Source: Christiangramia forsetii KT0803
GTDB taxonomy: Bacteria > Bacteroidota > Bacteroidia > Flavobacteriales > Flavobacteriaceae
NCBI RefSeq assembly: GCF_000060345.1
Contig: NC_008571.1
Span: forward strand, 496,001-560,000
Length of the DNA: 64,000 bases
Direction of reading: 5' to 3'
Position 1 is the stretch's first letter; every line of letters begins with the position of its first letter. A program made the translations under genes and the position numbers. Shown here piece after piece: positions 13,248 through 31,460 of this stretch. Under the pieces are notes generated by a model, which was given only the letters and a program-made list of their open reading frames with translations, searched no databases and had not been told where the DNA came from.

Positions 13248-13275
13248 CGCCATGTTGAAAGAGAAATTTTAGAAG

Positions 13276-13551: not shown

Positions 13552-13571
13552 ACCAAAAAATCCTTTTAAAC

Positions 13572-13602
13572 TTTTCAGATTTTAAAATAAACAATATATT
13601 TG
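13572..13602 (+). promoter_or_regulatory. Promoter of tRNA-Arg
   Basis: TTTT at 13572-13575, 19 bases, then TATATTTG at 13595-13602. The tRNA starts 37 bases after the -7 box. Confidence 0.5.
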
Positions 13603-13638
13603 CACCCGCTTTGCAAGATAGTAAAGTAATTAAAAAAA

Positions 13639-13712
13639 GGCCTTGTGGCGCAACTGAATAGCGCACCTGATTACGGCTCAGGAGGTTCCAGGTTTGAATC
13701 CTGGCAAGGTCA
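13639..13712 (+). tRNA. tRNA-Arg (anticodon ACG)
   Basis: Acceptor GGCCTTG pairs with CAAGGTC (one G.T), discriminator A. The D-arm is GCGC/GCGC. The anticodon stem CCTGA/TCAGG encloses loop TTACGGC with ACG at 13673-13675. The T-arm CCAGG/CCTGG has loop TTTGAAT. A34 is presumably deaminated to inosine to read CGN. The 3' end is an insertion target: an exact copy is found 17.6 kb downstream. Confidence 0.96.
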
Positions 13713-13713
13713 C
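13688..13713 (+). repeat. attL-like direct repeat (tRNA-Arg 3' end)
   Basis: These 26 bases (T-arm, 3' acceptor strand, discriminator and one base beyond) are identical to 31268-31293. Repeats of a tRNA 3' end flanking accessory genes are the classic product of tyrosine-integrase insertion. Confidence 0.88.
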
Positions 13714-13736
13714 TCTTAATATTAATAATTATTATC

Positions 13737-13772
13737 AAAACCGCGCAAATCTTAGGATTAGCGCGGTTTTTT
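13737..13772 (+). terminator. Terminator downstream of tRNA-Arg
   Basis: A 10-bp stem (13737-13746 with 13761-13770, AAAACCGCGC/GCGCGGTTTT) is followed by further Ts. It lies inside the island side of attL, so it came with the island. Confidence 0.75.
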
Positions 13773-13908
13773 AGGTTTTGGTCTTTCAATTCATTTGATA
13801 TGATTTGAATTAAAATGATAACTAGAAGACACCTAAATTTTTAAAAGACACCTTAGGTATCTTTTGAAGAGAATTTAAGCTGAACTGCATAGTTGATTTG
13901 ACTTTATC

Positions 13909-14827
13909 TAATTAACTCGAGTTTCCTATTTTAAAATACATTTATCAACCTGAAATGCCATAACGAACAAGATGAGTTTAAGGATAAACCCGTTAGACGT
14001 TACAGCATTTATATGTCTTGGCATCAATGCGCTGATCTGGCTGATGGTTGTTTCTATCCTTTTTCTCATATGTTCTTTGGTAAAGGCTACGGCAGGAATA
14101 TCCTTTCGCTTTAAATTTGATTTCCTACTAATCTACAGATCCGCTTGTTCGGCCTCTCTGAATATATCCTCAACCTCGTAGTTGGTATACCCACTATCAC
14201 CGAAAAGGGAATTCTCTGATGGCAGGTCATGGTACATCTTCATGAGTATCTGTGAGTCGTGCTCAGCATCTTCCACCAGGTACATCTCCACCGGAATGCC
14301 ATCTGCAGTTGCACCTTAACACCATAAAAATATTCTCGTTAGGAGCCATTGTAGCCCCTGTATTTCTCGTCTTTGAAGAGTTTGCAACGGCTAATCCTTA
14401 TATTAAGACAAGCCTTGACAGGGAAGGAGTCAATGATATATTCCATCTCACAACAATTATTTGAATATCCCGCCTATTCGTAAAAGGATGAACATCAAGG
14501 TTTCTTTTAGTTTGCAAAGGCGTTTTGTAAAATCACTCTTTTTGATGACCTCTTCGATAATGTGCTGCGCATATAATCCAGTGTCAAGAACTGCTTGCCC
14601 CGGAAATAAAGGGCAGAAACCAAATCCGTTGTAATGATTTGGTCATCGGTGAATATCCAGTTATTGTGCTTTTTGTGATTCATTTATTTTAGCAGATCGC
14701 CAATCAAACAATAAATTGCAATAACTTATTATGGAGCATAATAAGTATATTTTGAAGTTAGATATTTCAAAATTAACGACTTATTTTATGCTCCTCTTTT
14801 TATTTTTCAGGAAACTCGAGTTAATTA
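13909..14827. mobile_element. Decayed IS982-like insertion sequence
   Basis: The 919-bp segment is bounded by perfect 19-bp inverted repeats: 13909-13927 and 14809-14827, each containing ACTCGAGT. Size, inverted repeats and the transposase relics on the minus strand fit the IS982 family. An additional inner inverted repeat (GGAGCATAATAAGT near 14732 and its near-complement near 14780) lies at the promoter end. Confidence 0.75.
13926..14683 (-). pseudogene. IS982-like transposase, frameshifted
   Basis: Minus-strand reading starts MNHKKHNNWIFTDDQ at 14683. It changes frame several times and meets stop codons. Recognisable later blocks are EMYLVEDAEHDSQIL, SLFGDSGYTNYEVED, then RKRIETTISQIS and HINAVTSNGF before a TAG at 13926-13928. 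These match the DDE domain order of IS982 transposases. With at least two frameshifts and internal stops it cannot make an active enzyme. Confidence 0.75.
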
Positions 14828-14913
14828 ATTGATAGGTGTGTAGGCACAGGAGAATATTTCAAAAAGCAGATTTATAAAGTTATTTTTTTGTTTGATGGCT
14901 TTTTAAGATATTA

Positions 14914-15105
14914 AAGTGTCAGGGGTTTCTCCCCTGGTTATTGGCTCAAAAACCGTTTATAGTCCCTGTCCCAGGAACAATCAAACTCCATAACCTAGAA
15001 GAAGATCTTGGAGCGCTTGATATTCAATTTTCCGAAGAAGAATTGAAGGAATTCCGTGATCAATTTTCAAAGATAAATTTAATAGATAATAGAACAACTT
15101 ATTAA
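14914..15105 (+). pseudogene. Aldo/keto reductase, C-terminal fragment
   Basis: The frame reads WLLAQKPFIVPVPGT, then KLHNLEEDLGALDIQFSEEE, and ends at TAA 15103-15105. This is the NADPH-binding end of a YakC/AKR-type aldo/keto reductase. The ~270 upstream residues are absent, and upstream of the WLLAQ block the frame is lost. The nearby IS relic probably accompanied the deletion. No start codon or promoter is evident. The remaining sequence between 14828 and 15215 shows nothing else. Confidence 0.75.
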
Positions 15106-15215
15106 TTATATAAGGATCACTAGAATTCATTATTCTTAAATTTTCACATATCTCTAACGGAATGAGACGTACAATTAAAGTATCTTATCCAATACTTCCT
15201 TTTAATAAATAAATT

Positions 15216-16016
15216 ATGAATGATCTTGAAAAATGGAGAGAGAATTTAGATTCCCATGATCTAACCAAAGATGAGGAATTTATCTTCGACCAAATTGGTT
15301 TAAATGGTACAAACAGAAGAAAGTTTTTAAAACAAATGTCTGCTGCTAGTTTAAGTATATGGGCATCATCCTATTTTACTTCAGAACTTTTTGCGAAGAC
15401 AATGAAAGACCTTCCCGAAAATCCTGAGGTTTTATGGAATGAGATTAAGGTAAATCTTCGTGTGAATAATACAGTAAAGCCATTGACGATCGATTCTAGA
15501 ACCACCTTACTCGATGCTTTAAGAGAACGTCTTGCGCTTACTGGTACTAAAAAAGGCTGTGATCATGGTCAATGTGGGGCCTGTACCATACTGATAGATG
15601 GGAAGCGGAAATTATCCTGCTTAACCCTCGCAGCTACCTGCGAAGAAAAAGAGATCACTACTGTAGAAGGACTGGCAAACGGAAGCGAACTACATCCATT
15701 GCAACAAGCATTTCTGAAACATGATGGTTTCCAGTGTGGTTATTGTACTCCTGGGCAGATTTGTTCTTCTGTTGCTCTCTTAGAAGAAGCCAAAAATGGG
15801 GAAGCTAGTTATGTTACAGAAGATTTTAAGTCGGTAAAAAATAATTTAAAGCTTTCAGAAGAAGAGATTCGAGAAAGAATGTCTGGAAATATCTGTCGTT
15901 GCGGTGCTTACAATAATATCGTTCAGGCTTTCAAGGAAGTTCATTCTGGGGATGATGAGATGCCAACCTGGGAGTTTGCTACGAAAGAGCAAATGGAAAA
16001 AGCTAAAAATGCCTAG
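15216..16016 (+). CDS. paoA: PaoA/YagT-like [2Fe-2S] subunit of aldehyde oxidoreductase
   Basis: This is the iron-sulfur subunit of a three-part molybdenum hydroxylase of the xanthine oxidase family. A twin-arginine motif NRRKFLK (R34-R35) plus a hydrophobic stretch predicts Tat export of the folded complex. The plant-type cluster uses C115, C120, C123 and C135 (GCDHGQCGAC...C). The second cluster uses C174, C177, C227 and C229 (CGYC, CRC). A long acidic lead precedes the Tat motif, which is unusual. The length is 266 aa. It starts a run with the FAD subunit 26 bases later. Assignment to PaoABC rather than another XDH family member rests on the neighbour's extra Cys set. Confidence 0.87.
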   Translation: MNDLEKWRENLDSHDLTKDEEFIFDQIGLNGTNRRKFLKQMSAASLSIWASSYFTSELFAKTMKDLPENPEVLWNEIKVNLRVNNTVKPLTIDSRTTLLDALRERLALTGTKKGCDHGQCGACTILIDGKRKLSCLTLAATCEEKEITTVEGLANGSELHPLQQAFLKHDGFQCGYCTPGQICSSVALLEEAKNGEASYVTEDFKSVKNNLKLSEEEIRERMSGNICRCGAYNNIVQAFKEVHSGDDEMPTWEFATKEQMEKAKNA

Positions 16017-16042
16017 ATCGATATCAGCAAAAAAATAAAATT

Positions 16043-17029
16043 ATGAGACCATTTACATATACAGACGTTGAAAATAAAGACCAGGCTTTAAACGCATATA
16101 CAGAAACCTCGCATTATCTTGGTGGAGGTACCAATTTGGTAGACCTTATGAAGGAAGATGTCGAAAGACCAGACCAGCTGATAGATCTGCAAAAACTCGA
16201 TTATAAAAAAATAACTTCAAACGAAAATGGCGGACTCACCTTAGGTTCCTTACTAAGTAATTCTGAGACCGCTAATCATCCGGAAATCAGAAAGAAATAT
16301 CCTTTGCTTTCTATGGCAATGCTTTCCGCTGCTACGGCACAAATAAGGAACATGGCTACTAATGGAGGCAACCTATTGCAAAGTACCCGATGTCCCTATT
16401 TTTATGAAACATCAATGCCCTGTAATAAACGGGAACCAGGATCTGGATGTGGAGCACTAGATGGGATGAATGGATTACATGCGATTTTTGGTTATAGTGA
16501 TAAATGTATCGCCGTGAATCCTTCAGATATGAATGTAGCATTGGCAGCAATAGGGGCAGAGGTTGAAGTTTTTAAGCCTAACGGTGATTCCAGGATGATA
16601 CCGTTTTCAGATTTCCATAGGTTACCAGGGGATCAGCCTCAGAAGGATAACAATCTGGAGCCCGGGGAATTGATCACCGCTATACATCTTTCTGATCCGG
16701 TATTTTCAGACCACTATTATTATCTCAAAATTCGTGAACGTTCAAGTTATGCTTTTGCGTTGATTTCAGTTGCGGTAGGTTTACAGATCAAAGGAGGAAC
16801 GATTACGAAAACAGGCCTTGCCATGGGTGGTGTAGCTCATAAGCCCTGGAAATTGACCAAAGCTGAGGAATTTTTGGCGGGAAAAGCGGCTACCCTCACA
16901 AACTTTGAAAAAGCAGCTGATCTGGCTATGCGGGAGGCAAAACCATTTGAAGATAATAAGTATAAAGTTGAGATGGGCAAAAAGGCGATAGTCAGAGCAC
17001 TATCTCAAGCTTTTGAAAGAAAAATTTAA
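16043..17029 (+). CDS. paoB: PaoB/YagS-like FAD subunit with extra Fe-S cysteines
   Basis: This FAD-binding subunit (328 aa) passes electrons from the iron-sulfur subunit to the acceptor. The FAD motifs are YLGGGTNLVDLM (25-36) and TAQIRNMATNGGNLLQ (98-113). An insert holds C117, C127, C136 and C155 (RCPYF, PCNKR, GCGALDG, KCIAV), the pattern of the additional [4Fe-4S] cluster known in E. coli PaoB. The C-terminal CO_deh_flav_C domain is present from about 215. The next gene follows after 25 bases. Confidence 0.9.
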   Translation: MRPFTYTDVENKDQALNAYTETSHYLGGGTNLVDLMKEDVERPDQLIDLQKLDYKKITSNENGGLTLGSLLSNSETANHPEIRKKYPLLSMAMLSAATAQIRNMATNGGNLLQSTRCPYFYETSMPCNKREPGSGCGALDGMNGLHAIFGYSDKCIAVNPSDMNVALAAIGAEVEVFKPNGDSRMIPFSDFHRLPGDQPQKDNNLEPGELITAIHLSDPVFSDHYYYLKIRERSSYAFALISVAVGLQIKGGTITKTGLAMGGVAHKPWKLTKAEEFLAGKAATLTNFEKAADLAMREAKPFEDNKYKVEMGKKAIVRALSQAFERKI

Positions 17030-17054
17030 TCTACTCTTAAAACGAAAACATATT

Positions 17055-19232
17055 ATGAAGACTTTAAATGAAACTGGAGTAGGTAAAGCTATTGATAGGG
17101 TAGAAGGTCATCTAAAGGTTACGGGGATGGCCAAATATGCTTCAGAATTCCCTGTAGAAAATAAGGTTTATGGGCAGGGGATCAATAGTACAATTGCTAA
17201 AGGCGAAATTCTGTCTATAGATACTTCTGAAGCTGAAAATCTACCAGGTGTTCTTAAGGTCATAACCTATAAGAATGCAGAAAAATTAAAAACTTTTGAA
17301 GAAGAAATGCCGCCGCTTTGGCCCGATGTTATTGCACCGGTTTTACAGACTAATAAAGTACATTATTATGGAGAATATGTTGGCTTCGTAGTAGCTGAAA
17401 CTTTTGAGATTGCTCAACATGCTGCCAGGCTTGTTAAATTTGAATATAAGAAGGATCATGATGCTGCCATTAATTTTGAAGAAAACAAATCGAAGGCATA
17501 TAAGCCAACGGAGTCTTCAGATTATTCCAGGGGAAATATAGAGCAGGGAATGAGCGAGGCAGATGTTAAAGTTGAAGAAACTTATACAACAGCAATGGAA
17601 CATCACCATCCCATGGAACTTCATGCTGTAATTGCTTCCTGGGATAATGGAAAATTAACAGCTTATTCTAGTCAGCAAATGATTGATGCTAATGTTACGG
17701 CTTTAGCAAATACTTTTCAAATTCCCAAAGAGAACGTAAGAATTATTGCCGCTTTTGTAGGAGGAGGGTTTGGCTCAAAGTTAAATATTGAACGGCATGT
17801 CGTCATGGCTTCAATGGCCTCACAAATGGTTAGAAAACCGGTTCAAGCAACGGTGACGAGGCAACAGATGTTTACTAATACCGGGTTTCGTCAATTTAAC
17901 GAGCAAAAAATGCGTATAGGCGCAAAAAAAGACGGAAAATTGACGGCTCTTTCTCATGATACGATCTCTCATACGAGTACCACTCAGCAGTATCAGGAAT
18001 CTTGTGGATTCGTTTCAAAAATGTTATATAATGTGGCAAATAATTCGATTAAGCATCGGTTGATTCCTATGAACCTGCAAACCCCTTTTGCGATGAGGGC
18101 CCCTGGTGAGGCTACAGGCAGTTTTGCGCTCGAATGCGCTATGGATGAGATGGCCTATAAATTGAATATGGATCCAATCGAATTCAGGGTGAAAAATGAT
18201 ACTCAAACGGATCTAAGCGAAAACAAGCCTTTTTCATCGAGACTATTTGTAGAATGTTTAAGGATTGGGGCTGAAAAATTTGGTTGGGAAAATCGAAAAA
18301 AGGAACCTCGCACCAATACGAATGGAAACTGGTTGATAGGACATGGGGTAAGTGCAGCTTCAAGAAAGGCACCATATCAAAAGACGTCTGCTAAAGTTAT
18401 TATAGAACTAGCTGGCGGAGAGCCTACTGCAACCATAAAAATGGATGCGACAGATATTGGTACCGGATCGTATACAATCATTGCACAAACTGTTTCTGAA
18501 TATCTGGGCATACGGGTAGAGCAGGTAAATGTTGAGATAGGAGATTCAGAATTTCCCAAAACACCCGGCTCCGGTGGCTCCTGGGGTGCCGCTTCTTATT
18601 GCAACGGAGCCAGGGCTGCATGTGAAAATGTAATTTCTGAATTAAAAAATAAATTAAACCTTGCAGAAACTGAAGAAGTCTCAATTGGAGATCTTTTGAA
18701 AAGAAATGATCTTACAAAATATGAGGCTACCGGAACTGCAGAACCATCAGAGGAATTTAAAAAACATTCGGTGTTTTCCTTTGGAGCAAATTTTACAGAA
18801 GTGTGGGTAGATAAGGATACTGGAATGTGGAAAATCAAAAGAATGGTGAATGTAGGTTCAGCTGGAAAAATTTTAAATCCTAAAACGGCATACGGGCAAA
18901 TTATTGGGGGCTTAACTATGGGTGCAGGCATGGTAATAGCAGAACAGTCTAAAATAGAACCTAATTTTGGTAACTTCATTACCCGTACTTTAGCAGATTA
19001 CCATGTACCGGTCAATCTGGATATGGCAAATATCGATGTCATCTTTTTACCAGAAGATGATAAGATTGCTAATAAAATGGGCGTAAAAGGAATTGGTGAA
19101 TTGGGAATTACCAGTGTAGCTGCCTCTATAGCCAATGCTATTTTTAACGCTACAGGAAAAAGAATGAGATCACTTCCAATAACTCCGGAAAAGCTAATAG
19201 AAGCACCGATAGAAAAACAAATAGAAACATAG
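17055..19232 (+). CDS. paoC: PaoC/YagR-like molybdopterin-binding catalytic subunit
   Basis: The large subunit (725 aa) carries the Mo-cofactor and oxidises the substrate, probably an aldehyde. Cofactor-contact motifs are visible: GGGFGSKL, FAMRAPGEATGSFALE, GSGGSWGAAS, and GVKGIGELGITSVAAS with the catalytic Glu at residue 682. No signal peptide is seen, so it would be carried out with the Tat-bearing small subunit. The frame is open back to 17013 within paoB, but the ATG at 17055 gives the expected N-terminus. The substrate is not deducible. Confidence 0.9.
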   Translation: MKTLNETGVGKAIDRVEGHLKVTGMAKYASEFPVENKVYGQGINSTIAKGEILSIDTSEAENLPGVLKVITYKNAEKLKTFEEEMPPLWPDVIAPVLQTNKVHYYGEYVGFVVAETFEIAQHAARLVKFEYKKDHDAAINFEENKSKAYKPTESSDYSRGNIEQGMSEADVKVEETYTTAMEHHHPMELHAVIASWDNGKLTAYSSQQMIDANVTALANTFQIPKENVRIIAAFVGGGFGSKLNIERHVVMASMASQMVRKPVQATVTRQQMFTNTGFRQFNEQKMRIGAKKDGKLTALSHDTISHTSTTQQYQESCGFVSKMLYNVANNSIKHRLIPMNLQTPFAMRAPGEATGSFALECAMDEMAYKLNMDPIEFRVKNDTQTDLSENKPFSSRLFVECLRIGAEKFGWENRKKEPRTNTNGNWLIGHGVSAASRKAPYQKTSAKVIIELAGGEPTATIKMDATDIGTGSYTIIAQTVSEYLGIRVEQVNVEIGDSEFPKTPGSGGSWGAASYCNGARAACENVISELKNKLNLAETEEVSIGDLLKRNDLTKYEATGTAEPSEEFKKHSVFSFGANFTEVWVDKDTGMWKIKRMVNVGSAGKILNPKTAYGQIIGGLTMGAGMVIAEQSKIEPNFGNFITRTLADYHVPVNLDMANIDVIFLPEDDKIANKMGVKGIGELGITSVAASIANAIFNATGKRMRSLPITPEKLIEAPIEKQIET

Positions 19233-19380
19233 ATTCATGATGAATATCATGATCTTAAAATTTCCACTTTTAAATTTATACTTAATGGCATTCAGAAATT
19301 TATTATTCTCAAAAGCCATTTTATCTGTTTAAACTAAAAAATTTCTTAAATTCAAAGAATAAAAATATATCCAGTGTACC

Positions 19381-19845
19381 ATGGCGACATTCAACATTAC
19401 AATCAACGGGAAGGAAAAGACTATAGAAGCAGATCCATCAACTCCATTGCTTTGGATTTTAAGAGATCATTTAAAATTGGTGGGCACTAAATATGGCTGC
19501 GGAATTTCGCAATGTGGGGCCTGTACTGTTCATTTTAATGGTTCTGCAGTAAGATCGTGTCAACTTCCAATTTCTTCGGCGGCCGATAATGAGATCACTA
19601 CTATCGAAGGTTTATCGGAAAATGGAGACCATCCGGTACAGCAGGCCTGGTTGGAAATAGATGTGCCTCAATGTGGGTATTGCCAGGCAGGACAGATCAT
19701 GTCTGCGTCAGCATTGTTGAAACGTAATCCAAGCCCTAGTGACAGGGAAATTGAGAACGCCATGGATGGTAATATTTGCCGCTGTGGAACCTATACTAGA
19801 ATTAAAGCCGCCATTAAGAAAGCCTCAAATACTGAAATTGTATAA
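19381..19845 (+). CDS. IorA-like [2Fe-2S] subunit of a second molybdenum hydroxylase
   Basis: This 154-aa protein has two [2Fe-2S] clusters: C40, C45, C48 and C60 ([10 protein letters not shown]...C), then C98, C101, C133 and C135 (CGYC, CRC). It matches the small subunit of isoquinoline 1-oxidoreductase type enzymes, which lack an FAD subunit and pass electrons to cytochromes. It has no Tat signal. The 148-base gap before it suggests its own promoter. The catalytic partner starts 28 bases downstream. The [2Fe-2S] folds of this gene and paoA are related but not recent copies. Confidence 0.9.
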
Positions 19846-19873
19846 GCTTCAGTTAAATTAAAAAGACATAGAG

Positions 19874-22150
19874 ATGACTAAAATAAAAACAGGAATAGGA
19901 AGAAGGTCTTTCATAAAAAGTGTTTCGGTTGCTGGAGGTGGATTAATCATTGGTTTCAACTGGATGGCATGTAAAGGACCAACAGAAGAAGGCAGCGAAG
20001 AACTGGCAATGCAAATGCCAGATGAATGGTTTGAGCTAAACGGATATTTGAAAATAGGAGATAATGGAATTGTCACTATTTATTCTCCAAATCCGGAAAT
20101 CGGTCAGAACGTGAAAACTTCCATGCCTATGATCGTAGCCGAAGAACTGGATGTAGACTGGAATAATGTGGTTGTGGAGCAAGCTCCACTTAATACCGAA
20201 GTTTTTACAAGGCAATTGGCAGGTGGGAGTCAGTCTATTCGCCAGGGATGGGAATCACTAAGAACCGCCGGGGCAACCGCAAGAAAAATGCTATTAATTG
20301 CTGCGGCAAAACAATGGGAAGTTCCTGTTTCAGAGCTTTCCGTAGAAAACGGAGTGATAAAGCATAAAGGCAGCGATAAAACTATTGGATATGGAGATAT
20401 TGCTAAAGCTGCCGCCCAGGTAGAGGTGCCCGAAGAGATTGAATTAAAGGATAATGATAATTTTAAAATAATTGGTACCTCTCGCAAAAATGTGGATGCG
20501 AAAAAGATAGTTACCGGCCAGCCATTATATGGATTGGATACTTATAAAGACGGAATGCTTATCGCCATGATCGTGCAGCCACCTGCCTTTGGAATGGAGT
20601 TCAAAACTATGGATGCTGAGAAGGTGAAAGAAATGCCAGGAATAAAAGATATTTTCACCATAGATACCTACCCGGAAGACATGGAGAAGGAATGGAGCGA
20701 TGTAGCCGCTTTTTCCAAATTGGTAGTTTTAGTTGGAGAAACTACCTGGCAGGTCATGCAGGCAAAAAAGGCCTTAAAAGTAGAATGGGATTTAAACCCT
20801 GAGCTCACAAAGGAAATTGAAATTCTCGAGAAGTCGGCGGGAATGGATGATGCAAGCGGATTAGAGAGTACCGATATTCATGCCACTTTAATGGCCGATG
20901 TAGGTTCTAAACAATCTGAAGTAGTAAGAAAAGATGGGGATCCAGAAAAAGCTTTTAAAAATGCAGCGCGAGTAATTGAACGTTCGTATACCTGTCCTTT
21001 TCTGGCGCATAACTGTATGGAGCCTATGAACTTCTTTGCTGATGTTAGTGGAGGGAAGGCAGAATTATTAGGACCAATTCAGACCCCAGAATATGCTGAA
21101 AAAAGCATTAATAAACGATTGGGTTTAGAACTTGAAGATATTGATGTTCAAATGACTCGAATGGGGGGCGGATTTGGTCGTAGACTTTATGGTCACTTTT
21201 TAGTAGAAGCAGCAGTGATTTCAGAAAAAATGGGTAAGCCTATTAAATTGGTGTACTCTCGTGAAGATGATATGACCAACGGAGTATACCGTCCGGCCTA
21301 TCATGTAACTTATCGTGCTGCTCTTGACGCAAATAATAAGCTTACAGCTTTTCATATAAATGCGGGAGGTATTCCTGAGAGTCCATTATTTGCCAATCGT
21401 TTTCCGGCAGGTGCGATAGATAATTATTTAGCAGAAAGCTGGACATTGAATTCCAATATATCTATAGGAGCGTTTAGAGCGCCACGTTCAAATTTTATTG
21501 CGGGTGCAGAACAGTCATTTTTAGATGAACTGGCTGAAGAAATGGGCAAAGATCCTATTCAATTTAGATTGGAGATGCTGGATCGGGCAAAGAAAGATCC
21601 TGTAGGGGAAGAAAACGATTACGATGCTGCAAGATATGCCGGAGTTTTGGAACTTGCTCGGGATAAGTCAGGCTGGGATAAAGGAAATTCATCATTGAGT
21701 CGTGGAGTTTCAGCCTATTACTGTCACAATTCTTACGTTGCCCAAATCCTTGATATGTCAGTAGAAGGAAATGAGCCTCTAATAGATAAAGTCACCTGTG
21801 CGGTTGACTGTGGAATTGTAGTGAATCCCGATGCCGCCAAAAATATGGTTGAAGGAGGAACGATTGATGGGATTGGACATGCACTTTATAGTGAAATGGC
21901 TTTTAAAGATGGGAAGCCGCAACAAAGCAATTTTGATACTTATAAATTAATTAGACATAAACAGGCTCCTAAAAGTATAGAGGTATATTTTGTAGACAAT
22001 GGAATCGATCCCACGGGATTAGGAGAGCCTCCATTTCCTCCCATTCAGGGAGCTTTGGCAAATGCGCTTTATAAAGCTACTGGGAAGAGGTTTTACAAGC
22101 AGCCATTTATCAATGAGTTACAGACTATAGAGTCTGAATTGAAAACTTAG
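19874..22150 (+). CDS. IorB-like molybdopterin-binding catalytic subunit, Tat-exported
   Basis: This 758-aa catalytic subunit has an N-terminal Tat motif GRRSFIK (R10-R11) and then a hydrophobic region followed by WMAC, so it may also be lipid-anchored at the Cys. Cofactor motifs include MGGGFGRRLYG, GAFRAPRSNF and, near the end, GLGEPPFPPIQGALANA, where the catalytic Glu lies in GLGEPPFPP. The order of blocks is that of IorB/nicotinate-dehydrogenase type enzymes. The true substrate (N-heterocycle or aldehyde) is unknown. It would act in the periplasm with the IorA-like subunit. No cytochrome c partner is encoded nearby. Confidence 0.9.
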   Translation: MTKIKTGIGRRSFIKSVSVAGGGLIIGFNWMACKGPTEEGSEELAMQMPDEWFELNGYLKIGDNGIVTIYSPNPEIGQNVKTSMPMIVAEELDVDWNNVVVEQAPLNTEVFTRQLAGGSQSIRQGWESLRTAGATARKMLLIAAAKQWEVPVSELSVENGVIKHKGSDKTIGYGDIAKAAAQVEVPEEIELKDNDNFKIIGTSRKNVDAKKIVTGQPLYGLDTYKDGMLIAMIVQPPAFGMEFKTMDAEKVKEMPGIKDIFTIDTYPEDMEKEWSDVAAFSKLVVLVGETTWQVMQAKKALKVEWDLNPELTKEIEILEKSAGMDDASGLESTDIHATLMADVGSKQSEVVRKDGDPEKAFKNAARVIERSYTCPFLAHNCMEPMNFFADVSGGKAELLGPIQTPEYAEKSINKRLGLELEDIDVQMTRMGGGFGRRLYGHFLVEAAVISEKMGKPIKLVYSREDDMTNGVYRPAYHVTYRAALDANNKLTAFHINAGGIPESPLFANRFPAGAIDNYLAESWTLNSNISIGAFRAPRSNFIAGAEQSFLDELAEEMGKDPIQFRLEMLDRAKKDPVGEENDYDAARYAGVLELARDKSGWDKGNSSLSRGVSAYYCHNSYVAQILDMSVEGNEPLIDKVTCAVDCGIVVNPDAAKNMVEGGTIDGIGHALYSEMAFKDGKPQQSNFDTYKLIRHKQAPKSIEVYFVDNGIDPTGLGEPPFPPIQGALANALYKATGKRFYKQPFINELQTIESELKT

Positions 22151-22159
22151 TTTTTTTTC

Positions 22160-22495
22160 ATGAAGCAGATCCGCATAAAGTGCTGGGTAGAAGATGAAGG
22201 AGAAAAGTTATTTGGTCCTGGACCCAATGAATTGATCAAAAAAATTCATAAGGAAGGCTCGCTATCAAAAGCTGCTGTAGTAATGAATATGTCTTATAAA
22301 AAGGCATGGGATCTGATACAAAGATTAAATCAGCATTCTGAAAAACCATTGGTGATTTTGAAAAAAGGAGGTTCCCACGGAGGTGGAGCAGAAGTTACTG
22401 CTAATGGTTTAGAAGTAGTAGCTGAATATGACAGATTGGAAAAAGAAATTACTGATCTAATAAGTCGACAGGATTTACTTAAATTATTAAAATAG
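22160..22495 (+). CDS. ModE-type winged-helix regulator (DNA-binding domain only)
   Basis: At 111 aa this has the ModE N-terminal HTH pattern: a GPGPNELIKKIHKEGSLSKAA helix-turn-helix, then MSYKKAWDLIQRLN and a glycine-rich wing KKGGSHGGGAEVT. It lacks the two MOP molybdate-binding repeats of full ModE. Such stand-alone proteins are often found beside molybdoenzyme genes. It may regulate the island in response to something other than molybdate bound directly, or use a partner. It begins 9 bases after the iorB-like stop. Confidence 0.83.
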   Translation: MKQIRIKCWVEDEGEKLFGPGPNELIKKIHKEGSLSKAAVVMNMSYKKAWDLIQRLNQHSEKPLVILKKGGSHGGGAEVTANGLEVVAEYDRLEKEITDLISRQDLLKLLK

Positions 22496-22572
22496 CTTTT
22501 AAGCTAGTCATTATTTATTGCCTGATTAAATTTACCATGCGATATATATACAAATACATAACGCTTTCTTAA

Positions 22573-24878: not shown

Positions 24879-25480
24879 TAGGGAATAAGAAAATAGGAGT
24901 TTTGATCCTGGCAGCAGGTGCTTCCAGTAGACTCGGGTTTCCGAAGCAATTGGTGGAGTTTAAAGGAAAAGCTTTGTTACAGCGTATGATGGAGCTGGTT
25001 AACTCTTTATCTTTTGACTCAAATATTTTGGTGCTTGGATCAAGTGCAGAAAAAATCAGATCCCAGGTTAAACCGGGAAATGTAAAAGTAATTGTGAATG
25101 AAAACTGGGAAGAAGGAATGGCTTCCAGTATAAAGTTCGGTTTAACCAAAACCTTGGAAAATGAAAAGAAATTAGACCATTTACTTATCCTGCTTTCAGA
25201 TCAGGCATTGGTATCAAAAGAACAAATTCAAGAATTAATAGACCTTCAGATAAATAAAAATAGCAGTGCCACTTTTTCAGAATATGATGGAGATATTGGA
25301 GTTCCGGCGATTTTCTCAAGCAGTTTATTTTCAGATTTACAAAAACTGAAAGGAGATCATGGAGCTAAAAAAATGATTTATAAGAAAGGGTTTCAATATG
25401 AGACTCTAAAATTAAATGAGGCGAACTTTGATGTGGATACTAAGAATGATGTGGAATTATTAAAGAAGATGGAAGAATGA
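24875..25480 (+). CDS. mocA: MocA-like molybdopterin cytidylyltransferase
   Basis: The protein has 201 aa with the nucleotidyltransferase signature LAAGASSRLGFPKQLVEFKGKALLQ, and LILLSDQ for the metal-binding Asp. MocA attaches CMP to the Mo-cofactor, the form used by PaoABC-type enzymes, which fits the two hydroxylases here. MobA (GMP) is the alternative, but MocA-like blocks such as GDHGAKK are present. The start is a TTG at 24875 overlapping the xdhC TGA (24876-24878). No ATG lies near the conserved N-terminus, so this unusual start is probably real. Confidence 0.85.
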   Translation: MIGNKKIGVLILAAGASSRLGFPKQLVEFKGKALLQRMMELVNSLSFDSNILVLGSSAEKIRSQVKPGNVKVIVNENWEEGMASSIKFGLTKTLENEKKLDHLLILLSDQALVSKEQIQELIDLQINKNSSATFSEYDGDIGVPAIFSSSLFSDLQKLKGDHGAKKMIYKKGFQYETLKLNEANFDVDTKNDVELLKKMEE

Positions 25481-25713
25481 AACTCACTTTAAGATATTTT
25501 GGTATGATCGCAGAAGCTACCGGTAGAACCGAAGAAGTTCTGAATGTTTCAGATCAAATCACTTTATACGATCTCAAAGATCAGCAAATAAAAAAATATA
25601 AAATTCAAGATCCTGAAGCTGTTCAGCTTGCCATAAATCAGGATTTGAATTTGAAATCAGAACTAAAAGAAGGTGATGAAGTAGCATTTTTGCCGCCATT
25701 CGCAGGAGGATAA
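25477..25713 (+). CDS. moaD: MoaD, small subunit of molybdopterin synthase
   Basis: A 78-aa ubiquitin-fold sulfur carrier ending in PPFAGG. The C-terminal Gly is adenylated by MoeB and then thiocarboxylated to supply dithiolene sulfur. LRYFGMIAEATG at the start and GDEVAFLPP before the tail are typical. It overlaps the MocA-like gene by 4 bases and shares a base with the next ATG. MoaE lies two genes down. Confidence 0.93.
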   Translation: MKLTLRYFGMIAEATGRTEEVLNVSDQITLYDLKDQQIKKYKIQDPEAVQLAINQDLNLKSELKEGDEVAFLPPFAGG

Positions 25714-26723
25714 TGAGATACGACAGACAAATAACCTTAGATGAAGTTGGAGATTCCGGACAGGAAAAACTCAGCAATAGCAGTGTGCTCATAATTGGTG
25801 TGGGCGGACTTGGTTGCCCTGCTGCACAATATCTTGTGGGAGCAGGTATTGGAAAGATCGCATTGATGGATCACGATAAAGTTTCCATCAGCAATTTGCA
25901 TCGCCAAGTTTTATATAATGAGAATGATATTGGAAGATCGAAAGCTATGGTTAGTCAGGAAAAACTGCAGCAATTAAATAGTGAGATCGAAATAGTTGCC
26001 ATTGATGAAGCTCTGAGTATTGAAAATGCAGAAAAGCTTTTTAGTCAATATGATCTTATCCTTGACGGAACGGATAATTTTGAGACCAAATACCTTATCA
26101 ATGATGCCTGTATTTTAGCTAATAAACCCTGGGTTTATGCTTCGATCTATAAAAATGAAGGTCAGTTATCTGTTTTTAATTATCAAAATGGACCATCGTA
26201 TAGATGTCTTTTTCCTAAGACTACCAGAAACAATGTGAGTTGTGAAGCCACAGGTGTTCTGGGAGTAGTTCCAGGAATCTTTGGAATGCTTCAGGCGATG
26301 GAAGTTTTAAAGATTCTATTAGGAGTTGGAAATTTGCTTTCCGGAAAACTGAAAATATCCAATTTGCTAATTGGTTCAGAACAAATTATGAATATTCAGA
26401 AAAGGGAAAAAGAAATCGAAAAGATCAGGGAAAGTGGAATTATTCCGGTGATAATTGAATGTAAGATCAATGACAATACAAGACTATATCTAGATATCCG
26501 TGAAATTTTTGAGCAACCCAAGATCACTTCAGAAAAAGTGATACAAATACCGATGAGTGATCTAGATGAAAGACTTTGGGAAATTCCGAAAGAAGAAGAG
26601 ATTTTCGTCTTTTGCCAGTCTGGTAAACGAAGTAAGAAAATAGTAGACCTATTGAAAGCCGAATACGGTTTCGAGAATCTAAACAATGTAGAAGGAGGGA
26701 TAGAAACAATAATATATGGATAA
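25713..26723 (+). CDS. MoeB/ThiF-like adenylyltransferase fused to rhodanese, zinc cysteines missing
   Basis: This 336-aa E1-like enzyme should activate the MoaD C-terminus. Visible are the nucleotide loop GVGGLGCPAAQYL (~29-41), the DGTDNFETKYLIND block, and the conserved Cys C177 in VSCEATGVLG. A C-terminal rhodanese domain has its active Cys C301 in FCQSGKRS. The usual CxxC zinc pairs are not intact: the first reads SYRC where CYRC is expected, and the later pair is absent. The fusion would let one protein adenylate MoaD and deliver sulfur. It overlaps moaE by 8 bases. Confidence 0.87.
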   Translation: MRYDRQITLDEVGDSGQEKLSNSSVLIIGVGGLGCPAAQYLVGAGIGKIALMDHDKVSISNLHRQVLYNENDIGRSKAMVSQEKLQQLNSEIEIVAIDEALSIENAEKLFSQYDLILDGTDNFETKYLINDACILANKPWVYASIYKNEGQLSVFNYQNGPSYRCLFPKTTRNNVSCEATGVLGVVPGIFGMLQAMEVLKILLGVGNLLSGKLKISNLLIGSEQIMNIQKREKEIEKIRESGIIPVIIECKINDNTRLYLDIREIFEQPKITSEKVIQIPMSDLDERLWEIPKEEEIFVFCQSGKRSKKIVDLLKAEYGFENLNNVEGGIETIIYG

Positions 26724-27159
26724 GAATAAACCAAAAAAAGTATTTGTACAGGGCGCAATTCCCCCAGAAAAGATTGCGACTTCCATTGCGAACCATCAGT
26801 CTAAAACTAACATTGGTGCGCATAGCATCTTTTTAGGTCAGATTCGAGCAGATAAAACTGATGGAAAAACAGTGAGCGCTATCCATTATTCAGCATACGA
26901 GGAAATGGCAGAGAATGTCTTTCATGAGATAAGAGAAGCGGCCTTTTTAAGATTTAATATTACTTGTGCGCATATCTATCATAGTCTAGGCGAAGTGAAA
27001 ACCGGGGAAATATGTCTTTTTGTATTTACATCTTCGGCACATAGAAAGATTGCCATAGAAGCCTGCAATTATTTTGTAGAAGAGATCAAGGCTAATGTGC
27101 CAATTTTCGGGAAAGAGATTTTTGAAGATGAAACCCATCAATGGAAAGTTAATAAATAA
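26716..27159 (+). CDS. moaE: MoaE, large subunit of molybdopterin synthase
   Basis: MoaE converts cyclic pyranopterin monophosphate to molybdopterin using MoaD thiocarboxylate. Family blocks include GAHSIFLGQIRAD, HYSAYEEMAE, IYHSLGEVKTGEICLFV, the AHRKIAIEAC helix, and the active-site Lys region VPIFGKEIF. The 147-aa length is usual. ATG overlaps the moeB-like gene and its stop touches the moaCB start. Confidence 0.94.
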   Translation: MDKNKPKKVFVQGAIPPEKIATSIANHQSKTNIGAHSIFLGQIRADKTDGKTVSAIHYSAYEEMAENVFHEIREAAFLRFNITCAHIYHSLGEVKTGEICLFVFTSSAHRKIAIEACNYFVEEIKANVPIFGKEIFEDETHQWKVNK

Positions 27160-28055
27160 TGGTTGATATTACCCATAAGATAAATACGTTGAGAGAAGCG
27201 ACCGCGATTGCAATCGTACGAACTTCCAGCGAAGAAACGATCAAGGCAATCCAGAGAAACAGCGTTCCGAAGGGGAATGTATTTGAAATGGCTAAAGCTG
27301 CAGGTTTACTTGGGGTTAAGAAAACTCCAGATCTTTTACCAGATTGCCATCCGATGCCTATAGAATATACTGGAATTGAATACGAGATCAACGGACACGA
27401 GATCAAGATCTCTATGACCGTTAAAACTATTTACAAGACAGGCGTAGAGGTTGAAGCAATGCATGGAGCCAGTATCGTGGCCTTGACGATTTATGACATG
27501 CTAAAACCAATTGATAAGAATGTCGAAATAGGTACGATCAAACTTCAGCAGAAAAAGGGCGGAAAATCTTCTTATAAAATAGATGCCGAAGGGCTTACTG
27601 CAAAAGTAGTGGTGTGTTCAGATACTATTTCCAAAGGAAAAGGAAAAGATAAAGCCGGGAAAGCGATCGTTTCCAAATTGGAAGAATTAGGTATTAAAGC
27701 TGAAAAGGTCATCATTCCAGATGAAGCAGAAGAAATCACTTCAGCCTTAATTAAAGCAGAGACCGAGTTGGTTATTTTCACCGGTGGCACGGGCGTTGGT
27801 CCACGGGATGTAACGCCTGAAACCATTGAATCGTTACTGGATCTTCGGTTAAAAGGAGTGGAGGAGCAAATGCGGAATTATGGTCAGCAGCGCATGCCAT
27901 ATGCGATGTTATCAAGATCTGTTGCGGGGATTGTAAAAGACAAAGTTGTGCTAGCGTTGCCGGGATCAACGAAAGGAGCTGCAGAATGCATGGATGCGAT
28001 ATTTCCACATGTATTGCACATTTTTAAAGTGATAGAAGGAAAAAGACATGATTGA
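27159..28055 (+). CDS. moaCB: MoaC-MoaB fusion protein
   Basis: Two enzymes in one 298-aa chain. Residues 1-~148 are MoaC, which forms cyclic pyranopterin monophosphate: DITHK at the start, DLLPDCHPMPI, VEVEAMHGASIVALTIYDM, and KGGKSS. Residues ~150-298 are MoaB/MogA-like, which adenylates molybdopterin before Mo insertion: VVCSDTISKGKGKDKAG, FTGGTGVGPRDVTPE, and LPGSTKGA. MoaC-MoaB fusions are known in some bacteria. The fusion links an early and a late step. moaA overlaps its 3' end by 8 bases. Confidence 0.93.
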   Translation: MVDITHKINTLREATAIAIVRTSSEETIKAIQRNSVPKGNVFEMAKAAGLLGVKKTPDLLPDCHPMPIEYTGIEYEINGHEIKISMTVKTIYKTGVEVEAMHGASIVALTIYDMLKPIDKNVEIGTIKLQQKKGGKSSYKIDAEGLTAKVVVCSDTISKGKGKDKAGKAIVSKLEELGIKAEKVIIPDEAEEITSALIKAETELVIFTGGTGVGPRDVTPETIESLLDLRLKGVEEQMRNYGQQRMPYAMLSRSVAGIVKDKVVLALPGSTKGAAECMDAIFPHVLHIFKVIEGKRHD

Positions 28056-29040
28056 AGAGAAAAAGCAAATAGTAGATAATTTTGGACGAAAACATACCTA
28101 TCTCAGGATTTCCCTGACCGACAGGTGTAATCTTCGATGTTTTTACTGTATGCCGGAGGAAGGGATCGAGCTGATGGAGAAATCCAGTATAATGACCATC
28201 GAAGAAATCATTGAACTCGCTACCAAATTCAGAGATTTGGGGGTGGATACGATTCGACTAACCGGTGGCGAGCCCTTGGTGCGTAAGAATTTTGGATACC
28301 TGGTGGAGGAATTGGCAAAACTGGGTGTGACCTTAAAGATCACCACCAACGGAATTATGTTAGATAGATACCTGGAACTTTTTCAGAAGATAGGTTTGAA
28401 AAAGATCAATCTTAGCCTGGATACTTTGAATAAAGCAAGATCGGTTTTTATTACCAAGCGTGATTACTTTGATCGTATCTGGAAAAATATTCAGCAGGCA
28501 TTGGAAATGGATATGGAAGTGAAGCTGAATATTGTCCTCATCAAAACTGTGAATGACAAAGAGATCAATGATTTTATTGAGCTCACCAAACATAAAAACC
28601 TGACCGTTAAATTTATTGAATTCATGCCATTTAAAGGTAATAAATGGGACTGGAGTAAAGGAGTGGGGAAACAGGAAATTCTGGATACTATTTCTGAAAA
28701 GTTTGGAAGTATTAAGGAACTGGAAAACCCGAAACATAGTACATCTACCAATTTTAAAGTTCCGGGACATGTGGGGAATTTTGCCATTGTAAGTACGATC
28801 ACCAATCCATTTTGCAGTGAATGCAATCGTATTCGGGTGACGGCCGACGGGAAGATGAAGAACTGTCTTTTTGCCAATTCTGAGACCGATCTGCTTACGC
28901 CACTTCGGAATGGGGAGAAAATGGAAGAGTTGATTATAAATGCGATCAAAACCAAAAAATATTCCCGTGACGGGATGGATGTAAAAATGGATGCCGATCA
29001 CTATGAAAATAACCGTTCAATGATCTCAATAGGTGGATAA
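28048..29040 (+). CDS. moaA: GTP 3',8-cyclase MoaA
   Basis: MoaA, a radical SAM enzyme, opens Mo-cofactor synthesis from GTP. The SAM cluster uses C27, C31 and C34 (CNLRCFYC). The GTP-side cluster uses C256, C259 and C273 (CSECNRIRVTADG...C). The chain ends in the required ISIGG tail (330 aa). It overlaps both neighbours: 8 bases with moaCB, and its stop shares a base with the moeA ATG. Confidence 0.96.
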   Translation: MIEEKKQIVDNFGRKHTYLRISLTDRCNLRCFYCMPEEGIELMEKSSIMTIEEIIELATKFRDLGVDTIRLTGGEPLVRKNFGYLVEELAKLGVTLKITTNGIMLDRYLELFQKIGLKKINLSLDTLNKARSVFITKRDYFDRIWKNIQQALEMDMEVKLNIVLIKTVNDKEINDFIELTKHKNLTVKFIEFMPFKGNKWDWSKGVGKQEILDTISEKFGSIKELENPKHSTSTNFKVPGHVGNFAIVSTITNPFCSECNRIRVTADGKMKNCLFANSETDLLTPLRNGEKMEELIINAIKTKKYSRDGMDVKMDADHYENNRSMISIGG

Positions 29041-30206
29041 TGGTAAGAATTGAAGAGGCTATAAAGATCATTCAAGATCAGGATATTAAATTGAAAACTG
29101 AAATTAGAAAACTTATTAATTGTCTTGGATTTTCCATTTCCGAAGATTTTGTCGCGCCTTTCGCCATGCCTTCTTTCGATAATTCTGCGATGGATGGTTA
29201 TGCCTTATGCGGAATCATTCAAGAATATAAAATTGTTGGTGAAGTTGCTGCTGGAAACATAAGTGAGATCGATTTGAAAGAAGGCGAGGCCGTGCGGATC
29301 TTTACCGGGGCAAAAGTTCCAGAAAACACGACCGCCGTGATGATGCAGGAAAAGGCCAAAGTAAATGGCGATAAATTGATCCTGGAGGAGCAACCAAAAG
29401 AAGGGCAGAGTATTCGGAGGAAAGGTGGGCAACTGGAAGAAGGTCAGCTGGTTTTTGAAAAAGGTTATGCGATCACTCCCGCAGGAATTGGGATGATAGC
29501 AAGCCTGGGAATTGAAAAAGTAGAGGTCTATAAAAAACCGGTCATCAATTTGATCACCACGGGGGATGAACTGATTACTCCCGGAAAATTTAAAAAGGAA
29601 GGACAGATCTACGAATCCAATAGCTATGCGCTGGCAGTTGCATGTGAGCAATTCGGATTTCCTGTACAACATAGATTACAGATCGAGGACAATTTTGAAT
29701 CCATAAAATCTGGAATAAAAAAATCTATTGAAAATACTGATATTCTAATCCTTTCCGGCGGAATTTCAGTAGGAGACTATGATTTTGTAAAACAGGCGCT
29801 TGAAGAAAATGGAGTAGAGGAGCAGTTTTATAAAGTGTTTCAGAAACCTGGGAAACCATTGTTTTTCGGAAGAAAAGAAAATAAATTTGTTTTTGCACTC
29901 CCAGGAAACCCGGCCTCTTCGCTAAGTTGTTTTTATATCTATGTGTTACCATTTCTTCAAAAATTCAGTGGTTTTCAAGAATGCGGATTACCAAAATATT
30001 CTTTTTCCATAAGTCATGATTTTGAAAACAGATCAGATCGGCCTTCGTTTCTAAAAGCGAAAGTCATTAACGATAATGTTCAAATTCTGGATGGGCAGGG
30101 TTCTTCGATGATACAGTCGATGGCAAAAGGTAATGCTCTGGCTTTTATAGATGCTGAAACTTCAGCAAAAAAAGGAGATCAAATTGATTGTTATTTAATT
30201 TCATAG
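29040..30206 (+). CDS. moeA: Molybdopterin molybdenumtransferase MoeA
   Basis: MoeA inserts molybdate into adenylylated molybdopterin. The four-domain layout is visible: PSFDNSAMDGYAL early (~42-54), GEAVRIFTGAKVPENTTAVMMQE (~82-104), the MoCF domain with TTGDELITPG (~176) and ILSGGISVGDYDFVKQ (~237), and FALPGNPASSLSCFYIYVLP (~285-304). The 388-aa length is normal. The TSUP permease follows after one base. Confidence 0.95.
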   Translation: MVRIEEAIKIIQDQDIKLKTEIRKLINCLGFSISEDFVAPFAMPSFDNSAMDGYALCGIIQEYKIVGEVAAGNISEIDLKEGEAVRIFTGAKVPENTTAVMMQEKAKVNGDKLILEEQPKEGQSIRRKGGQLEEGQLVFEKGYAITPAGIGMIASLGIEKVEVYKKPVINLITTGDELITPGKFKKEGQIYESNSYALAVACEQFGFPVQHRLQIEDNFESIKSGIKKSIENTDILILSGGISVGDYDFVKQALEENGVEEQFYKVFQKPGKPLFFGRKENKFVFALPGNPASSLSCFYIYVLPFLQKFSGFQECGLPKYSFSISHDFENRSDRPSFLKAKVINDNVQILDGQGSSMIQSMAKGNALAFIDAETSAKKGDQIDCYLIS

Positions 30207-30207
30207 G

Positions 30208-30963
30208 ATGCCCTTAGAATATTTGCCTGTCATTTTTTTCTTTATCGCGTTGTTCTATAGTTCGGTTGGTTTTGGCGGCGGATCCAGTTACCTGGCCATT
30301 TTGAGCCTTTTTTTAACCGACTTCTACGAAATTCGGTCAACTGCCTTAATTTTGAATATTTGTGTGGTCACAATTGGTACAATTATATTCATAAAAAATA
30401 ACGTCTTAAAGCCCAAACTGATCTGGCCTTTTTTTATTTTTAGTTTTCCCATGGCTTATCTGGGTGCTATGGTAAAATTATCTGAAACTGTATTTTTTCT
30501 GATTTTGGGAAGTGCGCTGATACTAGCAGGAATTTTTATGATCTTGAAATTTGTAAATAGTAAACTTGAATCCCAGGAATTTTCATATCTGAAGAAGTTT
30601 GCATTGGGAGGAAGCATTGGGTTACTTTCGGGTATTTCCGGAATTGGTGGCGGTATATTTTTATCTCCGTTTTTGAACCTGTTAAAATGGAAAGATCCCA
30701 GAACAATAGCTTCGCTAGCTTCAGTATTTATTCTGGTGAATTCCATAGCGGGAGTTGTAGGCCTGAAAGTAGCCGGAACTTTTCGGTTGGATTATCATCT
30801 GGTAGTACAACTAATTATCGGGGTAGCTTTTGGCGGAAGTATAGGTTCTTACCTTTCAAATAAAAAGTTTGACCTGAAATTACTGCGAATTCTAACCGCT
30901 ATTTTGGTTTTTTATGTAGGCGTCAGACTGGTGTTATTTAACGGTTTTGGAGTACGTATTTAA
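30208..30963 (+). CDS. TSUP (TauE/SafE) family permease
   Basis: This 251-aa membrane protein has about eight helices and the two family repeats marked SSVGFGGGSSYLAI near the start and ISGIGGGIFLSPFL in the middle (~147-160). TSUP proteins move sulfur-containing or organic anions such as sulfite and sulfoacetate. As last gene of the cofactor operon, one base after moeA, it may export a by-product or import a sulfur or oxyanion. Whether it could carry molybdate is speculation, although no modABC is seen. Confidence 0.85.
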   Translation: MPLEYLPVIFFFIALFYSSVGFGGGSSYLAILSLFLTDFYEIRSTALILNICVVTIGTIIFIKNNVLKPKLIWPFFIFSFPMAYLGAMVKLSETVFFLILGSALILAGIFMILKFVNSKLESQEFSYLKKFALGGSIGLLSGISGIGGGIFLSPFLNLLKWKDPRTIASLASVFILVNSIAGVVGLKVAGTFRLDYHLVVQLIIGVAFGGSIGSYLSNKKFDLKLLRILTAILVFYVGVRLVLFNGFGVRI

Positions 30964-31267
30964 AATATTTCATTCAAGTATAAAGTTAATAGAACAGTAG
31001 GATGACTAATTTCAAAATGTTAATTATCAGTAGTTGAGAAATAAACTTTAAATATCAACATTTATAGAACCGAGCAATAAATCAAACTTCTCATTCCATA
31101 TGAACTTATAATTTAACATACCTTGTCGGAGTTTTCTTATAACTAAAATAACGTGTATTTTTTTCAAATTGAAGTGATATACACTTATATAAGCTCAAAT
31201 TTAAAGATGCCTAAAAGTTACCTTATATATAAATCTTATAACCTCCTTCAGTTAGAGGATACGTAAC
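30964..31267. other. Gap between TSUP gene and attR
   Basis: AT-rich DNA with no frame I can assign on either strand. Just before attR, about 31249-31267, the bases GTTAGAGGATACGTAA could be the decayed body of a tRNA-Arg copy, with ACG at 31261-31263. No integrase relic was recognised. Confidence 0.5.
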
Positions 31268-31293
31268 CCAGGTTTGAATCCTGGCAAGGTCAC
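31268..31293 (+). repeat. attR-like direct repeat (tRNA-Arg 3' end)
   Basis: Identical over 26 bases to 13688-13713. No intact tRNA precedes it, so the functional tRNA is at the left end. Confidence 0.88.
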
Positions 31294-31296
31294 AAG

Positions 31297-31338
31297 AATA
31301 AAAAGATCTGTAGTCACTACTGCACGTCTTTTTATTTT
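31297..31338 (+). terminator. Hairpin after attR, probably the original tRNA-Arg terminator
   Basis: A perfect 10-bp outer stem AATAAAAAGA/TCTTTTTATT (31297-31306 with 31327-31336) encloses a small GTAG/CTAC stem, and T-rich sequence follows. It would have ended the tRNA transcript before insertion. Confidence 0.55.
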
Positions 31339-31460
31339 AAATAAGTCTTTTAAGAGTCTATAAAATTTGAATAATCCTGAGATTAACCAAATTTACTTTC
31401 GGTATAAAATGGAAGGTTAAAAGGTAGTATGACGAAAATAGGAATCATTCCTCAGAATAA

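Follow-up and report, generated by a model that had tools for sequence, protein, structure and literature searches.

A probable remnant of an integrative element at tRNA-Arg carries molybdenum hydroxylase and cofactor genes in Christiangramia forsetii KT0803

The stretch of DNA analyzed here (the window) covers 64,000 nucleotides, positions 496,001-560,000 of the 3,798,465-base single-contig genome of Christiangramia forsetii KT0803 (genome code G000). It contains a segment of ~17.6 kb at window positions 13688-31293, referred to as the island, which is bordered on both sides by a direct repeat of a tRNA 3' end with a single intact tRNA, the arrangement by which genomic islands are recognized. 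The sequence CCAGGTTTGAATCCTGGCAAGGTCAC is present exactly at 13688-13713, where it forms the final 26 bases of tRNA-Arg(ACG), and again at 31268-31293. ARAGORN detected no tRNA at the right repeat, its one further prediction in the window being tRNA-Gly (148-221). From the first hydroxylase gene to the TauE gene, all genes between the repeats are on the plus strand (Table 1), encoding two molybdenum hydroxylases, ten cofactor-related functions and one TauE-family protein. An earlier, sequence-only reading of the window had described exact 26-bp copies of the tRNA-Arg 3' end with no second intact tRNA, and two hydroxylases with eight cofactor functions in one direction. The repeats, the single tRNA, the hydroxylases and the common strand were all confirmed, while the count of cofactor functions has to be raised from eight to ten.

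The bacterial molybdenum cofactor (Moco) pathway is complete in the island, with moaA, moaC, moaD, moaE, moeB, moeA and a mogA/moaB-type gene. It should be mentioned that MoaD falls below the cut-off of 80 amino acids (aa) used for the list of open reading frames (ORFs). Twin-arginine motifs are signals for protein export, and both hydroxylases, with one such motif each, are probably exported. Among the 15 island ORFs scanned with Pfam, together with MoaD, no relaxase or type IV secretion family was found.

Table 1. Features of the island and its borders (window positions).
Feature	Position	Strand	Basis or remark
tRNA-Arg(ACG), intact, attachment site (attB/attL side)	13639-13713	+	ARAGORN; single copy in 20/20 congener loci
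Left 26-bp repeat (tRNA 3' end)	13688-13713	+	Exact sequence match
Element-like left tail with terminator hairpin, 195 bases	13714-13908		Resembles tRNA-Arg-to-integrase tail of G021
Insertion sequence (IS) relic, perfect 19-bp terminal inverted repeats, broken transposase-like frames	13909-14827	-	Single genome copy; transposase recognized by eye
Aldo/keto reductase C-terminal fragment	14902-15108	+	Pfam PF00248, E 3.2e-4, under gathering score
PaoA-like 2Fe-2S subunit	15216-16016	+	Domain and profile matches; twin-arginine motif NRRKFLK near N-terminus, by eye
PaoB-like flavin adenine dinucleotide (FAD) subunit	16043-17029	+	Pfam
PaoC-like molybdenum subunit	17013-19232	+	Pfam, NCBIfam
IorA-like 2Fe-2S subunit	19381-19845	+	Family by domains
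IorB-like molybdenum subunit	19874-22150	+	Family by domains; twin-arginine motif GRRSFIK at N-terminus, by eye
Short ModE-like helix-turn-helix protein, DNA-binding part only	22160-22495	+	TIGR00637, 77.6 bits, below cut-off 98.5
Class-V aminotransferase, NifS-like, candidate Mo=S sulfur donor	22573-23727	+	Pfam
XdhC-family cofactor chaperone	23724-24878	+	Pfam above gathering; best NCBIfam match below cut-off
MocA-like cytidylyltransferase	24875-25480	+	TIGR03310 best, 129.5 bits, below cut-off 186.45
MoaD, ThiS-family sulfur carrier, 78 aa	25477-25713	+	Pfam
MoeB-rhodanese	25713-26723	+	Pfam, NCBIfam; holds mosaic break ~25,800
MoaE	26716-27159	+	Pfam
Fused MoaC/MoaB	27159-28055	+	NF002947, 399 bits, above cut-off
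MoaA	28048-29040	+	Pfam; sole full-length copy in genome
MoeA	29040-30206	+	Pfam
TauE/SafE-family membrane protein	30208-30963	+	Pfam; adjoins moeA in 15/15 congener clusters
Right 26-bp repeat (attR-like)	31268-31293	+	Exact sequence match
Terminator-like hairpin and T-run after right repeat, proposed displaced tRNA tail	31294-31338	+	Read by eye
M57 peptidase gene, first chromosomal gene past island	31525-32376	-	Also downstream of tRNA-Arg in G016, G008

The repeat was followed across the genus in the KT0803 genome and 23 other Christiangramia (formerly Gramella) genomes, the congeners (codes G001-G023; G016 is C. sediminis ASW11-100). The 14-base pattern CCTGSCRAGGTCAC was found in 22 of these 24 genomes and is present twice in six of them. 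Both copies are at the tRNA-Arg locus in KT0803, G010, G018 and G023; the second copy of G021 is on a different contig, and that of G001 is a match where ARAGORN detects no tRNA. The reversed pattern, used as a control, gave one match among the 24 genomes, and the comparison of this census with its control rules out a chance origin of the 26-bp repeat.

The tRNA locus was located in the congeners via PrmA, just upstream, and 20 loci (those of all congeners except G011, G019 and G020) were read for 4.6-18 kb past the tRNA. The molybdenum package is absent from the site at all 20 loci, and within the same distance there is no second copy of the 26-bp sequence within four mismatches. The sequence downstream of tRNA-Arg varies strongly among species. 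In G021, G023 and G010 (in two frames in G010), the tRNA is directly followed by a tyrosine integrase gene; these genes were first recognized by reading, a pattern search having flagged none, and then confirmed by their Pfam Phage_integrase and Arm domains. Shorter distal copies of the tRNA end are present in five congeners: 23 bp in G021 (on another contig), 17 bp in G018 (108 bp downstream), 14 bp in both G023 (9,846 bp) and G010 (11,261 bp), and 13 bp in G008 (13,870 bp). The distal copy in G008, G010, G018 and G021 is followed by a terminator tail similar to a tail found immediately after the tRNA of another species, with best scores of 65, 43, 43 and 76, respectively, and 0 of 1000 shuffles in each case. 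This is the pattern expected if an element enters the tRNA 3' end and displaces the old tail. Insertion of the island at a tyrosine-integrase attachment site, as the sequence-only reading had supposed, is well supported by the congener integrases, the five distal copies and the absence of the package at 20 of 20 loci. The 23-bp distal copy of G021 is immediately preceded, in the C25 stretch, by an operon for a cbb3 oxidase (10380-19537), with genes for a metal ATPase, a COX1-FixO fusion and FixP. This operon may be cargo of the G021 integrase element; the contigs do not join.

The left end of the island offers a direct comparison with one of these integrase-bearing loci. Its tail aligns locally with the G021 tail on the integrase side, in register when counted from the tRNA (score 56, the best of 500 shuffles reaching 36; 0/500). 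None of the remaining 19 congener tails exceeded all of their own shuffles against it. The IS relic, whose two transposase-like fragments have no Pfam match at E 0.01, and the aldo/keto reductase fragment both occupy the interval from the left repeat to the first hydroxylase gene. Of 80 named loci, 9 have relatives of the reductase close to iorAB, and in G007 a full reductase frame is ~2.6 kb upstream of iorA on the same strand. Since such reductase genes accompany iorAB elsewhere, the left junction apparently falls within the surroundings that belong to the package itself, and the fragment fits a package truncated at that end.

At the right end, the M57 peptidase gene has a counterpart in G008, ~220 bases beyond the distal tRNA-end copy. 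In KT0803, G016 and G008 the M57 gene follows the tRNA, on the minus strand; 11 of the 20 congener loci have it on the opposite strand, in the interval from clpS to the tRNA. C. sediminis was considered as a clean empty site and rejected: ~3.4 kb with two ORFs, one regulator-like and one kinase-like, lie between its tRNA and M57 gene, and homology to KT0803 resumes only at 31456.

The package itself is widespread in the genus. MoaA orthologs of 82-92% identity were found in 16 of 23 congeners, only divergent MoaA (at most 52%) in G002, G004 and G009, and none in G005, G010, G015 or the incomplete G020. The G023 ortholog lies in two overlapping frames at ~442,270-443,260 of contig C1, suggesting a frameshift. 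In all 15 congeners with flanks read, the gene order iorAB-modE-nifS-xdhC-mocA-moeB-moaE-moaCB-moaA-moeA-tauE is kept, and the cluster is surrounded by other genes, with several distinct neighborhoods represented; BLAST did not call some of the short or divergent genes (for example moaD and a ModE) in every congener cluster. The PaoABC-like genes are variably placed, before iorA in G006 (with a relic in G016) and after tauE in seven congeners, and the gene order of the KT0803 island is common to Gillisia hiemivivida, Gillisia sp. CAL575 and Subsaximicrobium. A scan of 30 congener stretches and 80 named loci for tRNA-Arg or the repeat core was negative. The occurrence of the package in varied places without tRNA-Arg implies that it moves by other means too. 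The flanks of the C. sediminis package site exist in KT0803, ~10.5 kb apart, with the acyl-CoA-dehydrogenase part unmatched there, and the right flank of the G012 package matches KT0803 only at two separate places. Among 978 plasmid records with IorB-like proteins, none is at 60% identity or above. Far from being private to KT0803, the package is frequent elsewhere on the chromosomes of the genus, and it looks like a shared, exchanged set rather than something newly invented. In the C59 stretch of G021, the cluster is accompanied by another, divergent iorA/iorB pair (10422-14209, ~58-61%), with iorB on the opposite strand.

Sequence identity along the island is uneven. Compared with C. sediminis, the island is 82-95% identical over ~19,050-25,800 and 66-81% identical beyond. 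At fourfold-degenerate sites the identity is 70-77% from iorA to mocA and 30-42% from moeB to tauE; the corresponding values for core genes are 32% for clpS, 47% for prmA, 55% for tim (partial) and 84% for rpoB (conserved). These values mark the island as a mosaic whose parts meet near 25,800. In trees including 13 of the 80 named loci, the 5' part groups with C. sediminis (support 100) and the 3' part with Gillisia/Subsaximicrobium (98), the divergent clusters of Gramella jeungdoensis and G004 having been removed before the second 3'-half tree. KT0803 is on its own branch in the hydroxylase tree. In a small species tree C. sediminis is nearest to KT0803, and no starred set holds KT0803. These comparisons point to a 5' part that is recently shared with C. 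sediminis.

Based on the repeats, the genes and the comparison with the congeners, we propose that the 17.6-kb segment is probably what is left of an integrative element after insertion at the tRNA-Arg(ACG) 3' end, that is, a decayed tRNA-integrated metabolic island. A tyrosine recombinase would have inserted the element into the 3' end of the tRNA, and the crossover would have rebuilt an intact tRNA on the left and left the 26-bp copy of its end on the right. The integrase would have been lost later, the IS relic and the reductase fragment now lying where the integrase gene is expected. The element itself may have carried the molybdenum cargo. This cargo would be a marine Flavobacteriaceae package of cofactor synthesis, mocA cytidylation, XdhC chaperone, NifS-like sulfur donor, ModE-like regulator and two hydroxylases, for which both export and enzyme function are predicted. 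Recombination has probably moved parts of the package among species, and probably among genera as well.

Several observations weigh against this proposal. The likeness of the left tail is to one genome, G021, which is a metagenome-assembled genome, over ~73 aligned bases, and the tail of G007 is similar to that of G021 and not to that of KT0803. The G023 distal tail gave weak scores of 26-28 (0-1 of 1000 shuffles). The displaced-tail comparison that works for four of the congener copies gave no match for the island: 31294-31455 resembles no congener tail at a score of at least 26. The right end of the island did not resemble the right ends of the G021, G010 and G023 integrase elements above shuffles, and no repeated integrase-binding (arm) sequence common to both island ends was found above shuffles; the G021 element has one. 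A search with the three congener integrases gave nothing convincing, the best E value being 0.073 in the window (inside a hydroxylase gene) and 0.40 in the gaps. With no integrase inside, the island is at most a decayed, immobile remnant. Guanine-plus-cytosine (GC) content, 0.391 in the island and 0.352-0.387 in 17 blocks, was dropped as proof of foreign origin: codon usage is only slightly off, and clusters in 11 of 13 relatives are also GC-richer than their own flanks (the border is a rough cut for 5 of the 13), so that composition does not show foreignness and is uninformative here. The recent kinship with C. sediminis is judged from few core genes, with rpoB itself at 84%. Moreover, trees in which the 3' half stays with the genus or with C. 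sediminis are not rejected by approximately unbiased (AU) tests (p 0.126 and 0.11, respectively). A donor outside the genus was considered for this half and set aside, since the AU tests keep these alternatives beside the grouping with Gillisia/Subsaximicrobium.

The sequence-only reading had concluded that a fixed island delivered enzyme plus cofactor in one step. Insertion at an integrase site holds; delivery in one step is doubtful because of the mosaic, and with MoaA orthologs in 16 of 23 congeners the content is not special to KT0803. In the further checks it had named, no clean empty site was found, 31294-31455 being unmatched by congener tails, the search for integrase relics was negative, and the GC and codon comparison revealed only a slight deviation, which relatives' clusters share.

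Other histories of the locus were also considered. The repeats and the left tail could be the scar of an older, unrelated element, with the package entering later by homologous or IS-linked recombination. Such nesting would be in keeping with a package that occurs at several congener places lacking tRNA-Arg or the repeat core, with the IS relic and reductase fragment at the left junction, with the mosaic of the cargo, and with a right island end that resembles no known element end. However, it requires two events at one site, and no element gene is seen beside the package: the 15 scanned ORFs and MoaD are package genes, and the other ORFs of at least 80 aa in 15216-30963 are on the opposite strand over package genes. 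We regard this history as unlikely. Considerably less probable is a move within the chromosome, in which the species' own inherited package would have been relocated to the tRNA without an outside element, the copy of the tRNA end coming along. The package is indeed common in the genus, and C. sediminis, the nearest species in the small tree, has it elsewhere, at a place whose flanks exist in KT0803 without a second moaA. Such a move leaves unexplained why the duplicate is exactly the tRNA 3' end at an integrase-used site, and the closer kinship with C. sediminis applies to only half of the package, which argues for exchange between species.

That the package has always been at tRNA-Arg, with the repeat due to a partial tRNA duplication or chance, is hardly credible. 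The short tRNA-end copy 108 bp downstream in G018 could be taken as an example of a partial duplication, but this copy is followed by a tail like that directly after the tRNA in G014, so that it too looks like an insertion scar, and 20 of 20 congener loci are without the package there. Entry of an integrative element, followed by its decay, is the reading retained in the following.

A second molybdenum package was noted at the same tRNA. In G004 (contig C18, 9600-29500), tRNA-Arg is followed by genes for a NirB-like protein, a DUF4202 protein, a NarX-like kinase, a regulator, a major facilitator superfamily transporter, a nitrate-reductase-type molybdopterin enzyme and a nitrite/sulfite-reductase-like protein, and then by moaA, moaCB, moaE, moeB, a tetrapyrrole methylase gene, a MobA-like gene, moeA and ABC-transporter-like genes (ABC, ATP-binding cassette); these names are from Pfam domains, BLAST to the island, or reading. 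G009 has a similar set for nitrate/nitrite assimilation and Moco, also at tRNA-Arg. The CCTGSCRAGGTCAC census revealed no distal repeat for the G004 module, so that insertion of the nitrate-type module is no more than a possibility. The KT0803 package can occupy a tRNA docking site that holds other cargo in congeners, including this second molybdenum package for nitrate assimilation.

How molybdate reaches the cofactor pathway is a related question. None of the 24 Christiangramia genomes yielded ModA, which was matched in 11 of the 14 control genomes; the search did not cover SulP, MOT1-type or other secondary carriers. Unexpectedly, the ABC permease family PF00528 (BPD_transp_1) has no match in KT0803 (3.8 Mb, 99.95% complete), while all 14 controls match. 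A TauE-like gene is also present within the divergent Moco clusters of Gramella jeungdoensis and a Dokdonia metagenome-assembled genome. It is conceivable, as a tentative suggestion from gene neighborhood, that the TauE/SafE-family protein beside moeA imports molybdate in these bacteria without ABC-type importers, which would be an undescribed route. Inspection by eye of the G004/G009 Moco cluster of the nitrate type showed no TauE-like gene, which weighs against this assignment, and a role with sulfur compounds is equally possible. According to a comparative study (PMC5840216), the wider TSUP family is poorly characterized and predicted to move sulfur-based molecules. The absence of ModA in 24 genomes makes molybdate uptake in these marine bacteria a concrete, testable gap.

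For a costly trait, with a need for about ten cofactor genes, the island suggests a way of spreading in which the enzyme and its cofactor pathway travel together and are swapped in parts by recombination. A literature search gave no title on this island; subscription papers were mostly out of reach, hence this is no proof of absence. We have compared the island with several known systems. The first hydroxylase shares with the periplasmic aldehyde oxidoreductase PaoABC of E. coli, an enzyme with the MCD cofactor, the three subunits (2Fe-2S, FAD and molybdenum) and the twin-arginine motif. Two of the island subunits have PaoA and PaoC as their best NCBIfam matches, at scores below the equivalog cut-offs (273 of 322 and 720 of 1180 bits), the FAD subunit being outside that comparison. 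For XdhC function, an operon of Gramella forsetii that combines XdhC with Moco genes and two putative molybdoenzymes has served as an example (PMC2997495). Its content is the same as that of the island, and the accessible text of that source has no mention of tRNA repeats, relocation or a mosaic. The nitrate respiration conjugative element (NCE) of Thermus is likewise a mobile region with a molybdoenzyme system. It differs in that its enzyme is a respiratory nitrate reductase, and cofactor genes are not mentioned in the portion of PMC6282519 available.

Closer parallels are found among the tRNA islands and integrative and conjugative elements (ICEs) of Flavobacteriia. ICEEaIII of Elizabethkingia can insert into tRNA-Arg-ACG, among other sites (PMC8694125), and the Riemerella 50K island has 19-bp direct repeats at both flanks and lies beside a tRNA (PMC8694125, PMC9745183). 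As far as the available sections of these sources go, both are like the KT0803 island in having an integrase site at a tRNA and cargo between the ends. Unlike them, the KT0803 island is without integrase or transfer genes, and its metabolic cargo is common in the genus at other loci. The island is a decayed case of a known kind, the tRNA-integrated genomic island, and its interest is in an exchanged enzyme-plus-cofactor package at a genus-wide docking site.

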